This document shows, in pieces, positions 10,774 through 50,800 of a stretch of DNA of 64,000 nt. Below the pieces are notes generated by a model. The model was not told the DNA's origin. It saw only the letters and a list, made by a program, of their open reading frames with translations, and ran no database searches. Position 1 is the stretch's first letter. Every line of letters begins with the position of its first letter. The position numbers were made by a program, and so were the translations under genes. Source of the stretch: Bdellovibrio sp. 22V (lineage in GTDB: Bacteria > Bdellovibrionota > Bdellovibrionia > Bdellovibrionales > Bdellovibrionaceae); assembly GCF_030169785.1 (NCBI RefSeq), contig NZ_CP125854.1, positions 1,922,001-1,986,000 on the forward strand. Reading direction: 5' to 3'.

Positions 10774-10788
10774 ACAGAGTTAAGTTTT
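10764..10788 (+). terminator. Weak intrinsic terminator after the kinase gene
   Basis: TAACTCT (10764-10770) and AGAGTTA (10776-10782) pair around a 5-nt loop that contains the stop codon, followed by AGTTTTT. The 7-bp AT-rich stem is marginal. It overlaps the putative -35 of a FliA-like promoter. Confidence 0.4.
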
Positions 10789-10807
10789 TAACACCTTATC
10801 CCGATAT
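10781..10807 (+). promoter_or_regulatory. Possible sigma-28 (FliA) promoter of the lipoprotein gene
   Basis: TAAGTTTT (10781-10788) and CCCGATAT (10800-10807) are separated by exactly 11 bp. Each half matches 6 of 8 positions of the enterobacterial FliA consensus (TAAAGTTT, GCCGATAA). It lies about 70 bp before the GTG start. It is weaker than the csrA site but has the same geometry. Confidence 0.35.
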
Positions 10808-10874
10808 TACGCCTATCAGAGGGCGGAATGGATCTTGCCTTTATTCATATTGATACGTGAAAAAAGGGGGATTT

Positions 10875-11450
10875 GTGAAAAGAGGTTTGGCACTAATATC
10901 AGTTCTGTGTCTCATTTTAGGATTCCAGAACTGTAGCCAAAGCGCTTTTAATCCGGCTGGATTAGAAGCCAATGAAGTTTCTATCTCTTTGCCTCCTTCG
11001 GTTGAAGGTGAAGAGCCAAGTTCTTCCAAAGTAACTTACGTCGAAATCCCGAACATGCAAGATCAGAGCAGTGGTATTGCAGCGAAAGCCAGCGAGTTGA
11101 CTCCTTATCGCCTTGTTATCTCAACGGCGACGGGCCGAATTCAGCTTATGGATGATGCCAATGAAATCTTGCAAGAGAAATGTTTAAGCTCCAGTGATCT
11201 GCAAGAGTTGCAAACGATCCTTAGCGGTTCTTCTGTGTGCGCGCAGCCTGAAGTCGAGGCTGACATGTGTGCGGCGAGATACACTCCGCCTTATGCGTCT
11301 CTTTACGCAAATGAAAAACGTGTAAATCTGGGGGAAGCGAGGGATTCTTGTGGCAAAGGCCGCAAAGATCTTTGCGGAGGCCTCACAGAAGTATTTCAAG
11401 CTTATATAAGTCACGTAAAGTCCGGTTGGACTTCGATGAATTGCGAATAA
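10875..11450 (+). CDS. Putative lipoprotein with Asn at the -1 lipobox position
   Basis: The GTG at 10875 is chosen because a GGGGG run lies 4 nt upstream; a GTG at 10857 would add six residues without a site. Residues 1-17 form a hydrophobic signal ending LGFQN followed by Cys 18, a non-canonical lipobox. The mature domain of about 170 residues contains seven further Cys, mostly in the C-terminal half (KCLSS, VCAQ, MCAAR, SCGKG, LCGG, NCE), indicating a disulfide-stabilised envelope protein. No known family. A strong terminator follows at once. Confidence 0.6.
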   Translation: MKRGLALISVLCLILGFQNCSQSAFNPAGLEANEVSISLPPSVEGEEPSSSKVTYVEIPNMQDQSSGIAAKASELTPYRLVISTATGRIQLMDDANEILQEKCLSSSDLQELQTILSGSSVCAQPEVEADMCAARYTPPYASLYANEKRVNLGEARDSCGKGRKDLCGGLTEVFQAYISHVKSGWTSMNCE

Positions 11451-26352: not shown

Positions 26353-26389
26353 AATTCTATTATGAGAAACTTTAGCGAACTAGACTACG

Positions 26390-26398
26390 TTCCGATAG
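26390..26398 (+). promoter_or_regulatory. TTCCGATAG element 7 nt before paralogue A start
   Basis: The core TTCCGATA is shared with the upstream regions of paralogue B (27972) and the fibre gene (47792). It matches the FliA -10 at 6 of 8 positions in the form TCCGATAG, but no good -35 is found 11 bp upstream. The ATG at 26406 lacks a clear Shine-Dalgarno, so a very short leader is possible. Confidence 0.35.
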
Positions 26399-26405
26399 GA
26401 ATACC

Positions 26406-27917
26406 ATGGGGATCAGGTATTTTTTGGCAATCACCATAGTGGGGCTTGTGCTCTCGCCTTTGCAAGGTCATGCGGATTCTTATGCCGCATGCCACACGAC
26501 ATGCAATGCACGACATCCTAACAATCCTTCCGCGATGTATGAAAACTGTTTACAGGATTGTTATGGAAGCATGAACACTGTTGATCTTCCCGAAGTAGGG
26601 CCCCTCCCTCCTTCTAGACCATCTGACCTCGGTTCGCAAAACACGCGTACCAACGGCAACGGCAATAATCAAAACCAGAACCGCAATCAAAATCAAGGCG
26701 GAAACCAAAATCAACAGCAAGCGAACCAGTGTGTTCAGCAGTTTGAAGCGTTGTTATCTCAGTGCAACTCGCAAGTCGATGAAACCTCTTACCAGTGTGA
26801 TGAAAAAAACGATTCAGGTATGACGGGAGTTGCAGACACCGCTTCGCAGATTGCTCTTTTGATGGGGCAGCAAACGGCGGCGAGTGTGCAAGCCGCGTGC
26901 GGAAAGATGGGGGATTTGTCTCAGGCAGCGCAAGGTGCGGTGGCAGCGTATCGTTTGAATTGCAGTAACTCGATTAAGACATGCCGGGAAACTTGCGATG
27001 CTCCGAAAAACTATGTGAACTCGAACGCAACTTGTTTCAATGGTGGTGCAGGCGCTGCCAATAACGGTGTCTATGCATTGTCGCGCGCGCAGTCCGCTCG
27101 CGATCGTTGCAATAATTTCGATTCGAAAGTTCAACAAGCACAACAAGCTATTCAGAACTATGGAGCGACGGCGGCGAATGCTTCTCAGTGTGAGGAGCAA
27201 ACCAAAGGCGAAGCTACGCCACCGCCGGATGTGTGTAAGCAAAATCCTCAGATCGCAGGATGTACACCTGCGGGTCCCATTGATTGTTCAAAACCTGAAA
27301 TGGCGACAAATAAAGTGTGTGTATGTTCGAAAACTCCCACAGACCCTATGTGTACAAACTTAGGTAAAGCTTCCGACGTTATGGTTGGTGGAGGCTCCTT
27401 TGATCCTGCATCGCGCTTGAATTCGGGATCCAGCGATGACTTCGGTGGTGATATTCCCGACACGCCGGCCATCTCGCACGGCAAATTGCCAAGCGGTGGA
27501 CCCGGTGAAGCTGTCGACGGAAAACAAGGCGCCGGAGCTGATCTTGCGACGAATCCGGGGAGTGGCAGCAGTCTTGCCGGTGCGGGCGGAGGTCGAAGTG
27601 GTGCCGGTGGTGGTGCTGCTGACAACGCGACAGGTGGTGGTTCCGGCTTCTATGGTGGAGGCAGCGGCGGCGGTGTCTTCGGAGGTGGCGGCGGAGGCGG
27701 CGGCGCTCGAGGTGCCGCGGGCTCTTACGGTAAAGTCGGCGCGAATGGAAAAGCGCCGGGTGCAGATCTTCGTCAGTTTCTTCCAGGCGGAAAATTTGAT
27801 CCGCGACGAGGAGTTGCGGGAGTGTCAGGACCTGATGGCATCACGGGACCTCACTCAAATATTTGGCAAAAGATTCAGAATCGATATCAAGTGGTCAGCC
27901 CTTCGTTGATCCCTTGA
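26406..27917 (+). CDS. Secreted Cys-rich/Gly-rich surface protein, tandem paralogue A
   Basis: The 503-residue protein has a signal peptide ending GHAD. Modules: a small Cys module (about 25-60, four Cys), an Asn/Gln-rich low-complexity linker (about 78-105), a helical Cys core (about 107-305, starting QCVQQFEALL, with QNYGATAANASQCEEQT and PPPDVCKQNPQIAGC), a long Gly/Ser-rich segment (about 375-445), and a conserved C-terminal tail with LRQFLPGGKFDPRRG and NIWQKIQNRYQV. It shares the core, Gly region and tail with the next gene, but the N-terminal module differs. Nothing identifies an enzyme; an exported structural, adhesive or fibre-associated role is inferred. Confidence 0.75.
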   Translation: MGIRYFLAITIVGLVLSPLQGHADSYAACHTTCNARHPNNPSAMYENCLQDCYGSMNTVDLPEVGPLPPSRPSDLGSQNTRTNGNGNNQNQNRNQNQGGNQNQQQANQCVQQFEALLSQCNSQVDETSYQCDEKNDSGMTGVADTASQIALLMGQQTAASVQAACGKMGDLSQAAQGAVAAYRLNCSNSIKTCRETCDAPKNYVNSNATCFNGGAGAANNGVYALSRAQSARDRCNNFDSKVQQAQQAIQNYGATAANASQCEEQTKGEATPPPDVCKQNPQIAGCTPAGPIDCSKPEMATNKVCVCSKTPTDPMCTNLGKASDVMVGGGSFDPASRLNSGSSDDFGGDIPDTPAISHGKLPSGGPGEAVDGKQGAGADLATNPGSGSSLAGAGGGRSGAGGGAADNATGGGSGFYGGGSGGGVFGGGGGGGGARGAAGSYGKVGANGKAPGADLRQFLPGGKFDPRRGVAGVSGPDGITGPHSNIWQKIQNRYQVVSPSLIP

Positions 27918-27952
27918 TCGTGTCTCTTTTTGAGACACTCAGGAACGTTCTT

Positions 27953-27980
27953 TTAAGTTCGTCCTCATATGTTCCGATAA
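27953..27980 (+). promoter_or_regulatory. Possible FliA promoter of secreted paralogue B
   Basis: TTAAGTTC (27953-27960, 6 of 8 to the FliA -35) and TCCGATAA (27973-27980, 7 of 8 to the -10) are 12 bp apart, one more than the usual 11. The ATG lies 9 nt after the -10, so the transcript would have almost no leader. Confidence 0.45.
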
Positions 27981-27989
27981 ACTCGGAGC

Positions 27990-29450
27990 ATGGGGAATGT
28001 TTTCTATTCAGTAATACTCTTAGCGATCAGTCTTTTCACTTTTCCTGAAGACGCGTATGCCCGTTGTCGAGCTCAATGTGCTGAAGGTTTTAAATGCGTA
28101 TACAATTCTCGAGGGCATGAAATGTGTGAACCGGAGCGCCGTGATGAATGCACACGGCAGCTCGGCGAGTGCTATCCTGGATATAGTGCGCGACTTAATA
28201 GCGCGGGCTCGTGCGAATGTCTTCCAAATTCAAACAACAATAATAATAACAATAACAACAATACAGCTATTGACTGTCGTACGCAGTTCAACAATCTGTT
28301 GCAATCTTGCCAAACGCAAATTCAGGAAACGTCTTATACCTGTGATGAAAAAAATGATTCTGGTATGAACGGTGTTGCTGATACGGCTTCGCAAGTTTCT
28401 CTTTTATTCGGCCAGCAAACGGCGGCAAGTATTCAAGCCGCTTGTTCAAGAATGGCGGGTTTAACCCAAGCGGCGCAAGGTGCAGTGGCTGCGTATCGAT
28501 TGTTATGCAGTAGTTCCATTGGCCAGTGTCGATCGACTTGTGCGGCAGCGGCGGATTTTATTCGTGCGAATCCAAATTGTTCGCCTGTAAGTGCAGAGAA
28601 TGTGCAAATGTTGTCTTCTGCGGAATCGCAGGCAAAACGTTGCGACGACTTCCAGTCTAAAGTGGCGGAAGCGCAACAAGCGATTCAAAACTATGGCGCG
28701 ACGGCTGCGAATGCGGCTCAGTGTGAAGAGCAAACAAGCGGAGACGCAACACCGCCACCTGATGTCTGTAAACAGAACCCACAAATTGCGGGTTGTACGC
28801 CAACGGGACCGATCGATTGTTCAAAGCCGGAAATGGCGACGAATAAAATCTGTGTGTGTACGAAGACTCCGACAGATCCGATATGTATTACTCAAGCAAA
28901 ACCGGATACCAGTGTTGGCGTTGGCGGCAGCATCGACTCGTCATCGCGAAAACTTGCAGCAAGCACAGGCGATAGCGGTCTTGGGGATATTCCCGGTTTG
29001 CCAGGTTTAGAGCATGGCAAATTGCCAAGTGGCGGAAGCGGCGAAGCCGTCGACGGAAAACAAGGTGCCGGCGCAAATCTGGGTTCTGATGGCGGCGGCA
29101 GCGGCGGCGGTCCCTCTGGAAGAGGCGGCGGTGGCGCGGCAGGTGAAGACGATTCACAAGCTGTCACAGCGGGTTTCTATGGCGGAGGCAGTGGCGCTGG
29201 TGGAGCCTTCGGCGGCGGATCAGGTCGCTACGGTGCGGGCGCAGCTGGAAATTATGCAGGGGCGGCAGGAGCAAACGGTCAGGCTGGAAATGGTCCTGAC
29301 TTACGAAGATTTTTACCTGGTGGTCAATTCGATCCTAAACGCGGTCTTTCAGGAATGGGCGGCCCGGATGGAATCACAGGACCGCATACAAATATCTGGC
29401 AAAAGATTCAGAACCGCTACAGAGTGATGAGTCCTTCACTTCTGCCATAA
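27990..29450 (+). CDS. Secreted Cys-rich/Gly-rich surface protein, tandem paralogue B
   Basis: The 486-residue protein has a signal peptide ending DAYA. The N-terminal module (about 25-78) has eight Cys and differs from paralogue A. An uninterrupted run of ten Asn, encoded by AAC/AAT repeats near 28232-28261, links it to the shared core (IDCRTQFNNLL onward, with QNYGATAANAAQCEEQT), the Gly-rich region and the tail ending YRVMSPSLLP. The core is close in sequence to paralogue A, so the pair arose by tandem duplication with the tip exchanged or diverged. Function unknown; exported. It converges on lysC with an 8-bp gap. Confidence 0.75.
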   Translation: MGNVFYSVILLAISLFTFPEDAYARCRAQCAEGFKCVYNSRGHEMCEPERRDECTRQLGECYPGYSARLNSAGSCECLPNSNNNNNNNNNNTAIDCRTQFNNLLQSCQTQIQETSYTCDEKNDSGMNGVADTASQVSLLFGQQTAASIQAACSRMAGLTQAAQGAVAAYRLLCSSSIGQCRSTCAAAADFIRANPNCSPVSAENVQMLSSAESQAKRCDDFQSKVAEAQQAIQNYGATAANAAQCEEQTSGDATPPPDVCKQNPQIAGCTPTGPIDCSKPEMATNKICVCTKTPTDPICITQAKPDTSVGVGGSIDSSSRKLAASTGDSGLGDIPGLPGLEHGKLPSGGSGEAVDGKQGAGANLGSDGGGSGGGPSGRGGGGAAGEDDSQAVTAGFYGGGSGAGGAFGGGSGRYGAGAAGNYAGAAGANGQAGNGPDLRRFLPGGQFDPKRGLSGMGGPDGITGPHTNIWQKIQNRYRVMSPSLLP

Positions 29451-37241: not shown

Positions 37242-37571
37242 ATGAAGATCACGCACAACAAAGTCGGACAAAATTTGAATCTTACTGATTCTGCTCGCTC
37301 CGACAAAGCTGAGGGCATTAAGAATAAAGCAACTGGTGCGACAAACAAAGCGGATGTACTGAGTTCATCAACTCTGGGTGAATCATCTCGCGTTGAACTT
37401 TCTCCTCGCGCTCAAGAAGCAAAACGCATCAAGGAACTTGCGACAGCAGCTCCGGATGTTGATGAAGCGAAAGTGGCGAAGTTCAGACAACTGATCGACG
37501 ATGGCAAATACAAAATCGACGCCAAAGCTATCGCTGACCGTATGGTCGACGAGCATTTGGAGATTAAGTAA
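37242..37571 (+). CDS. flgM: Anti-sigma-28 factor FlgM
   Basis: The 109-residue protein starts MKITHNKVGQNL and has the sigma-binding C-terminal half: RVELSPRAQEAKRI, then VDEAKVAKFRQLIDDGKYKIDAKAIADRM, the classic FlgM helix pattern (quoted in parts). FlgM holds FliA inactive until exported through the finished hook-basal body. GAGGAGG lies 8 nt upstream. Its presence supports FliA-dependent promoters elsewhere in the window. Confidence 0.92.
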   Translation: MKITHNKVGQNLNLTDSARSDKAEGIKNKATGATNKADVLSSSTLGESSRVELSPRAQEAKRIKELATAAPDVDEAKVAKFRQLIDDGKYKIDAKAIADRMVDEHLEIK

Positions 37572-47753: not shown

Positions 47754-47773
47754 ATTGATTTGAGCCTCCTCCT

Positions 47774-47800
47774 TAAGGGGGCGTAAGATCTTTCCGATAA
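47774..47800 (+). promoter_or_regulatory. Possible FliA promoter of the fibre gene
   Basis: TCCGATAA (47793-47800) matches the FliA -10 at 7 of 8 positions. The segment exactly 11 bp upstream, TAAGGGGG (47774-47781), matches only TAA and one G of the -35. The ATG at 47809 is 8 nt after the -10 and has no Shine-Dalgarno, so a leaderless or near-leaderless mRNA would result. Confidence 0.4.
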
Positions 47801-47808
47801 GTATACAA

Positions 47809-50800
47809 ATGAATAACTGGTACGTTTCGGGAATATTTGTTTATTTGTTTTGCTATGCCCTCTCGGCTTTTGCTGTTCCAGGGGCATTAACATATCAAGG
47901 TCGAATAAAAAATGCGGACGGACTTCCTTTAGAAATAAATGGAGTGAAGTTTGAGTTTGCCGTGGTCAATCCTACCGGCAGTTGTATTCTCTATCGTGAA
48001 ACTTCCGGCTCTTTGGATATGCGAAATTCGGGAGGGGTGTTTGATGTTCCGATTGGCCCGGGAACAAAGAACTATCCTGCAGATCCTGGTTTTAAGTTGT
48101 TAGATAGTTTCGCCAACAGCACCACTTTTAATTGTGAAGGCGGCGGTACTTACACTCCTCTGACAGATGATAAGCGCCTTTTACGCGTGCAATTTTATGA
48201 CGGCACGGGATGGAAGTTAATCAGTCCAGACAGCGAGATCCGCTCGGTTCCTTTTGCGGGACACGCGAAGATCGCGCAAACCGCGAATTCTTTGGGAAGT
48301 AACGTTGTCAGTGATTTTGTACTGAAATCTTCTGTACCGCTGTGTGCTGCCGGACAATACCTACGTCACATCGCCCCTTTGGGAACTTTCGAGTGTGCGG
48401 CTCCTTCTGTTGCGGGAGGGAATGTCACAGGAAATATCGCCGGCAGCTCCGCAGGCTTCACAGGGAATTTGAGTGGCGATGTTTCGGGAACTCAAGCTGC
48501 GACGAGTGTAGATAAAATCAAAGGTGTCGCGCTGGACATGACGGGCATCGCTTCAGGGAAAGTTCTGAAATACAATGGCACAAGCTGGATTCCAAGTGAT
48601 GATAGTGGGACTGTAGGTGGCATCACGACGTTGAATGGAGATGTCTCTTCAACAGGCAATCCCACTGCCACAGTCACTTTGAATGACAGTACTGTGACCT
48701 CCGCAAAGATTGTCGACGGTACTATTGTCGATGCAGACATTTCCAGTAGCGCTGGCATTGCGGATTCTAAACTTGCGACGATTTCATCCGCAGGCAAGGT
48801 TTCCGGAAATGCCATCACGTCTGGAACTATTGGTGGTTCTACGACAGTGAATACGTCAGGCTCTGTCACGGCAAACAGCATGTCGACGGGAACTCTGGGT
48901 GTTAATAATTTGCAGGTGTATAAAACCGGAAATGGCAACAAGGTCACAATCACGGTGCCGGCAGGGTTGTCGTCAGACTATTCATTGCAATTGCCATCAA
49001 GTGCGGGGACTTCGGGACAAGTCTTGTCGACAGATGGCAGTGGGATTTTATCTTGGATAAATCCCGCTACGGGTTCGGTGACCTCAGTAACAGCAACAGC
49101 GCCATTGGCCAGCAGTGGAGGAGCCACTCCGGTCATTTCCTTAAACACCTCGGGTGTGCAAACAGGACAAACTCTTTTGTATAATGGAACTCAGTGGAAT
49201 GTGCAGTATTTTGGCATGGGACAGTTGCGTTCGACCGTCACAGGAACTTCCCAAATTCCTGCATCTTGTTCGACGGCAGATAAGACTCTCACTTGGAGTG
49301 CAATCACAGATTCATTTTCTTGTACGACGATTGCAATCGCCAATACGCAAGTCACGGGACTGGGAACAGCTTCCACAAAAAATTTCGGCACATCAGCGGG
49401 AAACCTCGTTGAACTTGATGGCTCTGCAAAAATTCCGGTTTCACTTCTTCCCCAAGGAGCTGGTGGAACTCTGGTCGACGGAGGAAATGCCACAGGTGCC
49501 GCGATTTCTGTGGGAACGAATGATGCCAACGCTCTGTCTTTAGAAACCAACAATGCTGTTCGAATGACAATCACCTCGGCAGGCAATATTGGAGTCGGCA
49601 CAGAGGCACCCCAGCACTTCATGCATCTTTCTAAAGATGGAGATTTAAGTACGATTTTGGATTCTTATGGAGGCAGTGCCGGTTTGGTGATGCGAAAAAC
49701 TTCAGGCACAAAAGCGGCTCCGACGGCAACGTTGAGCGGAGCGGATCTCGGAGTTTTAGTTTTCGGCGGCTACGGCGCTTCAAGTTTTCATTCTTACTCT
49801 GCTGCGAAAGTTTCCGCTATTGCCAATGAAAATTTCACGGATGCCACGGGAGCGGCTTCATTGGTATTTTCTACGCGAGGACCCAATGATCTTTCTGCCT
49901 CTGACGAAAGAATGAGAATCACACCCACTGGTGACGTTGGTATTGGCACATCGATTCCTGGTGCAAAATTGGAAGTTCAAACCGGAAATATTCGCTCCTC
50001 TCGAAGCGCTGGTGTTTCTAATCAATATGCCGAGATTCAGGGAGGAGATCCCGGCGGGATTTATTTTGTTGGTCATACGGATGAAAGCAATAAAAAGCTC
50101 CTGCGATTTAGATCTCTGCATAATTCCGGCGGCACTCCCAGCGGTGCTCTCGGATTTTTATTTGAACTAGGTCCTACTTCCGCTCCGATAGAAGTGATGA
50201 GAATCACTGAAGAGGGCCATGTGGGCATCGGGACGGCAGCGCCTACGGCTCCATTAAATGTTGTGGAAAGCACGGATATCACCAGTGCGGTCGACGGTGG
50301 TGCCATTCTTATTCATACGGGAGCGACTCACCAAATGCGTATTGACTCAAATGAAATTCAAACTTCTTTAAGTGGTGCTGCTTCCAGTTTGGCCATAAAT
50401 CCTTTCGGTGGCGTCGTTCAGGTTGGAGCTGTCTTTCAGCCACTGACTGATAATAGCTTTACTCTTGGATCGGCCGCGCGACGCTGGTCCGCTGTTTACG
50501 CCACGAACGGAACCATTCAGACTTCCGATCGCCGTCTTAAAAAAGACATTCAGGATTTAAACGTGGGTCTTCGTTTTATAAACTCTCTGCGTCCTGTGAG
50601 TTTCAAGTGGCGTTCCGATGAACCGTCTTCTGCGCCAACTCACTGGGGCTTGATCGCTCAGGAGTTGCATGACCAAGTAAATCGGGAAGGAACCGATAAT
50701 GTCGGAGTCGTTTCTAAAAAGGACGATTATTACGGTGTTAATTACTCTGAACTTGTCGGACCCTTGATCAATGCGGTGAAGGAACTGGATGTCGCTTGTA

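Follow-up and report, generated by a model that had tools for sequence, protein, structure and literature searches.

Attack-phase promoters of Bdellovibrio bacteriovorus were mapped by Karunker 2013, and 92 of the 140 promoters carry the pattern TTAAG-N16-CCGATA, which was attributed to FliA (PMC3627812). The consensus of that regulon is identical to the one found in the present locus, and cell-surface proteins are among its targets. However, the paper has 0 mentions of leaderless transcripts and describes no downstream element. The MAT family of B. bacteriovorus displays the same signal peptide, conserved beta-rich domain and S74 C-terminus as the fibres considered below (PMC10769870); that work includes no promoter or FliA analysis, and the 5' regulatory architecture of the family is described here. 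Leaderless mRNAs of Campylobacter and Helicobacter likewise have the ATG a few nucleotides after the -10 box and no ribosome binding site, but they depend on sigma-70 and are poorly conserved between species, whereas the present cases involve sigma-28, one functional class and a conserved spacing (PMC3847290). In C. jejuni, the same dRNA-seq work mapped transcription starts 6-8 nt downstream of the sigma-28 box CGATwt (PMC3847290). Bdellovibrio promoter papers and a full-text search for "leaderless" gave no relevant description, although the wider literature could hold one. FliA control is already known, while the leaderless architecture and the GNACGT element reported below were found nowhere in the literature searched.

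The window, that is, the whole 64,000-nucleotide stretch that was analysed, corresponds to bases 1922001-1986000 of the 3.60 Mb single-contig genome of Bdellovibrio sp. 22V (the host genome), and its features are collected in Table 1. In front of the fibre gene, TCCGATAA was found at 47793-47800, leaving 8 nt before the ATG at 47809, and TAAG at 47774-47777 lies 15 nt 5' of TCCGATAA. This promoter (site C) is a perfect TTAAG-N16-CCGATA over 47773-47799. The initial annotation had given this placement, the -35 spacing and the coordinates correctly. Its FliA reading and its link to attack-phase genes were also borne out, since site C reproduces exactly the consensus determined experimentally for that phase (PMC3627812). 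The ATG was confirmed to be devoid of a preceding Shine-Dalgarno sequence. The transcription start was placed using the C. jejuni sigma-28 box-to-start distance, the gap between CCGATA and ATG being 9 nt in site C. On this basis the transcripts of genes A and B (described below) and of the fibre gene are predicted to begin about 0-3 nt before the ATG. With a predicted leader of 2 nt and no Shine-Dalgarno, the fibre mRNA would fall among leaderless messages, defined here by a leader of about ≤5 nt and no Shine-Dalgarno.

Table 1. Coordinates, within the window, of the promoters, genes and signals discussed in the text
Feature	Position	Strand	Remarks
Fibre gene FliA (sigma-28) promoter, site C	47773..47800	+	TTAAG 47773-47777, N16, CCGATAA 47794-47800
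Predicted transcription start A47807 and 2-nt leader AA	47807..47808	+	Predicted from distance, 7 nt after CGATAA
S74-type MAT-like fibre gene, 1053 aa	47809..50970	+	Signal peptide, LTYQGRI domain, C-terminal Peptidase_S74 chaperone
Downstream element GGTACGT of the fibre gene	47819..47825	+	Consensus (G/T)GNACGT; 19 nt after CCGATA
Gene A FliA promoter	26371..26398	+	TTTAG-N16-CCGATAG; one -35 mismatch; CCGATA to ATG 8 nt
Gene A; secreted product of 503 aa, family unknown; paralogous to B	26406..27917	+	No Pfam match
Gene B FliA promoter	27953..27980	+	TTAAG-N16-CCGATAA; exact over 27953-27979; CCGATA to ATG 10 nt
Gene B; secreted product of 486 aa; paralogous to A	27990..29450	+	No Pfam match
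flgM, anti-sigma-28 factor, presumed FliA partner	37242..37571	+	Pfam FlgM E 1e-16

Two further genes of the window, A and B, show the same arrangement. TTCCGATA is located at 26390 and 27972, 8 and 10 nt 5' of the ATGs at 26406 and 27990, in agreement with the positions and distances reported initially. The two genes are paralogous to each other and not to the fibre gene. The start of gene A is without a Shine-Dalgarno, and that of gene B is preceded by a GGAG only 1 nt before the ATG, too close to act. The products of the tandem pair (window 26406-29450) are Asn- and Gly-rich with conserved Cys and belong to no Pfam family; a cytochrome P450 gene (24395-25750) adjoins them.

In the window, three exact two-box sites were observed against a mean of 0.007 in 300 dinucleotide shuffles. 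When up to one -35 mismatch was allowed and an ATG was required at a gap of 6-12 nt, three sites were again obtained (shuffle mean 0.02). Neither count was attained in any of the 300 shuffles. TTCCGATA alone was not significant in the window, with 4 occurrences seen and 1.7 expected. The significance resides in the two-box match and its placement, not in TTCCGATA by itself. The exact pattern TTAAG-N16-CCGATA occurs 13 times in the whole genome, three of them within the window, and with one mismatch allowed 102 sites were found against 54 for the reversed pattern. The pattern TAA-N16-CCGATAA, with a spacer one base short, gave 10 matches against 10 in the control; TAA-N17-CCGATAA alone (11 against 9) was too weak, and the five-base -35 box was therefore adopted for the searches. 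The third exact site of the window, at 10780, is leadered. The first ATG behind it (10829, gap 22) begins an ORF of 10 codons; the TGA of this ORF overlaps the GTG (10857) at which a lipoprotein-like ORF starts (window 10780-10890). A similar promoter-to-ATG layout was seen in at least six further genomes of the genus, which suggests a coupled leader peptide. Elsewhere, two exact promoters (loci L022 and L023, at G000:C1:709564 on the minus strand and 709713 on the plus strand) face away from each other at a distance of about 150 bp and drive divergent genes.

The distance between promoter and start codon was evaluated over 66 genomes of the family. TAAG-N16-CCGATA followed by an ATG at a gap of 6-12 nt was found 226 times, against 19 for the reversed control. 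At gaps of 13-19 and 20-26 nt, the counts were 66 against 24 and 138 against 35, respectively. This indicates that a near-leaderless class and a Shine-Dalgarno-led class are both real and old. Among the exact host-genome sites located outside genes, as called by a simple codon-usage method, 7/12 are followed by a long ORF whose start codon lies 7-12 nt from CCGATA (for one of them, L022, an internal start is plausible as well), and in the remaining ones the start is mostly found at 22-24 nt, behind a Shine-Dalgarno. The short spacing is also kept in orthologues of several non-fibre genes, with, for instance, gaps of 12, 12 and 11 nt for the MSKRKKKSS protein and of 11 nt in both members of the L087/L129 pair. 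Judged from these patterns, the placement of the promoter next to the ATG is a rule and not a curiosity. A significant excess of exported proteins among the leaderless FliA genes as a whole did not emerge: by a crude hydrophobicity rule for signal peptides, 15/23 of them were scored as exported against 126/269 in the background (p = 0.13). A general sigma-70 leaderlessness was considered and rejected, as no TATAAT was detected at a gap of 6-12 nt before 400 candidate ATGs.

The fibre protein carries Peptidase_S74 at its C-terminus (profile search, E 3.8e-15) and matches solved MAT structures, including Bd2133 8ond. By homology, the fibre would be trimeric, surface-exposed and prey-binding. Its N-terminal beta-rich region is common to about 22 genes of the host genome. 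In 14 of these a CCGATA-like box is located 8-13 nt before the start (exactly 8 in 11), and about a third have a longer leader (gaps 26-46) or no clear site. The analysis was extended to a total of 98 MAT starts in the host genome and additional genomes of the genus. Promoters were selected on their box scores, blind to the gap; the counts include paralogues, which are not independent observations. A start codon and a -10 box with ≤1 mismatch were present in 88/98. The start codon lies 7-13 nt after CCGATA in 75/88 and at exactly 8 nt in 59/88. Together with the enrichment across the family, this near-invariance agrees with the near-leaderless mRNAs predicted initially.

Selection by the -10 box only gave 80 unique leaderless MAT sites. 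In these, a TTAAG-like -35 emerged at spacer 16, the spacing typical of FliA, with T at -21 in 63/80 (1.12 bits), so the leaderless MAT promoters can be read as FliA promoters. Many of the MAT -35 boxes are weak, hence some of these promoters may not belong to FliA. A second TTAAG-like box occurs 3 nt before CCGATA in about 22/80 fibre promoters (e.g. L175, L178, L180, L281). A pyrimidine directly precedes the start codon in 72/80 MAT sites (90%); in background genes the share is 57% (p = 2e-10). As transcription in bacteria tends to initiate on a purine that follows a pyrimidine, such an excess is expected if the A of the AUG is +1. It could be argued that the -10-like octamers are chance matches, with the true promoters upstream and ordinary leaders, as TTCCGATA on its own is no rarity in the window; the two-box match, the spacing enrichment over 66 genomes and the -35 emerging at spacer 16 leave this explanation with a negligible likelihood.

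Aligning the MAT paralogues revealed an element, (G/T)GNACGT, shortly after the ATG, which goes beyond the initial annotation, where it had been missed. GNACGT was found in codons 2-13 of 66/75 leaderless MAT genes, while codon shuffles gave 4.8 ± 2.1 with a maximum of 11. All three frames are represented (40, 17 and 9 genes), and depending on the frame the element encodes Gly-Thr, Trp/Arg/Leu-Tyr/Asn-Val or other residues. The element is restricted to -6..+30 around the ATG, in a single orientation, at a variable distance of 16 to 28 nt from the -10 box. In leadered MAT genes with other start sites (L186, L217, L227 and L247), it is located upstream of the start codon. No structural signature was detected around the element, the unpaired probability of the RNA being 0.52 against 0.50.

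A search for CCGATA-N14-28-GGWACGT in 24 genomes of the genus, in which start spacing was not a search criterion, gave 115 matches against 36 for the reversed pattern. The non-MAT matches examined encode sequence-unrelated secreted lipoproteins and, in the host genome, one secreted protein with a GTG start. In about 14/18 of them the start lies 7-12 nt after the box, mostly at exactly 8, and the element again appears in all frames. The occurrence in three frames, one orientation and unrelated genes argues that GNACGT is a nucleic-acid signal and not a coding constraint. Two proteins deserve separate mention. The product of L345 (G000:C1:1259271) is secreted and fibrinogen-C-like by eye, its GTG is found 8 nt after CCGATA and it carries GGAACGT; it is a candidate non-MAT adhesin. 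L158 (minus strand, about G000:C1:1818308) encodes a Kelch-repeat-like lipoprotein with a FliA -10 box and GGAACGT right after the ATG, and match strings similar to its own are present in two other genomes of the genus.

The MAT genes are paralogous and mosaic, and some neighbouring paralogues share more of their leader. The common 5' ends could thus reflect recent cassette copying or recombination among paralogues, with no regulatory meaning. Such a neutral model needs the sequence between the boxes to be conserved, whereas it is the spacing and the element that are conserved. Furthermore, common descent of the proteins cannot explain an architecture that unrelated proteins share, and copying does not fit an element in three frames. 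This explanation was already disfavoured and is considered very improbable.

Downstream enhancers of the lambda cI type provide a signal within the first codons of a leaderless mRNA. GNACGT differs in being a fixed hexamer that is limited to adhesin and lipoprotein genes. Its position is nonetheless where such enhancers were proposed, and nearly all of its carriers are leaderless, as would be expected of a ribosome contact that replaces the Shine-Dalgarno. Most other predicted leaderless FliA genes are without GNACGT, however, which indicates that it is no general requirement for leaderless translation, and in the leadered MAT genes it precedes the start codon. A role as translation enhancer is accordingly regarded as improbable.

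A DNA operator just downstream of the start, through which a transcription factor would repress or time the adhesin genes from the FliA promoter, is supported by two observations: in the four leadered genes the element tracks the promoter and not the start codon, and it is independent of frame. Against an operator stand the single orientation, the lack of a palindrome, the varying distance to the -10 box and the absence of the element from most other FliA genes. This possibility is therefore rated as rather unlikely, although ahead of an enhancer. A palindromic operator in particular was discarded, as ACGT.C was found in 17 genes but almost always in overlap with G.ACGT, so that the element lacks symmetry. 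Likewise discarded was a CsrA-type GGA site, since many elements read GGT, TGT or TGC, whereas ACGT is invariant.

The best explanation of the data is that FliA drives leaderless MAT mRNAs with an element read in trans, for which a probability of about 0.75 is estimated. Promoter, spacing, conservation and frame independence are read from the sequences, and the remaining steps are inferred. FliA RNA polymerase would transcribe the fibre gene from the consensus attack-phase promoter adjoining the ORF. The mRNA would start at the AUG or 1-3 nt before it, and would be translated without a Shine-Dalgarno as a leaderless message; leaderless mRNAs are translated by 70S initiation. The same architecture would be standard for the MAT prey-recognition fibre genes of the genus and for a group of genes encoding secreted lipoproteins. 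In most of these transcripts the directional (G/T)GNACGT would lie about 10-20 nt from the 5' end, in any frame. A trans-acting factor would read it, so that, superimposed on the FliA/FlgM switch, the adhesin repertoire may be adjusted jointly.

One FliA scores above the cut-off in the genome (281.8 bits, cut-off 189.6), and the only FlgM found (61.3 bits, cut-off 25) is encoded within the window, just upstream of FlgK. The shared FliA/FlgM switch suggested by the initial annotation thus stands as regards the FliA consensus and the presence of both factors, the switching by FlgM itself being presumptive.

As reader of the element, an sRNA or RNA-binding protein acting on the mRNA 5' end is favoured over a DNA-binding repressor. 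The directionality of the element, its non-palindromic sequence and its variable distance from the promoter speak for RNA, although the data do not discriminate between RNA and DNA. Tentatively, a dedicated post-transcriptional regulator of this kind may recognise (G/T)GNACGU near the start of leaderless adhesin mRNAs and control the whole prey-recognition repertoire at once. With equal reserve, the regulon would then be defined by a frame-independent signal inside the coding sequence.

These findings bear on how the predator deploys its many prey-recognition fibres. The near-rigid layout of FliA box, 8 nt, start codon and GNACGT offers a handle on which fibres are made, when, and through which factor. 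If true, an alternative sigma factor would be linked to a leaderless adhesin regulon. The short signal may also help to find further adhesin genes that escape homology searches; the lipoproteins and the secreted fibrinogen-C-like protein came to light by it. Taken together, this suggests a common, so far undescribed control of prey recognition.
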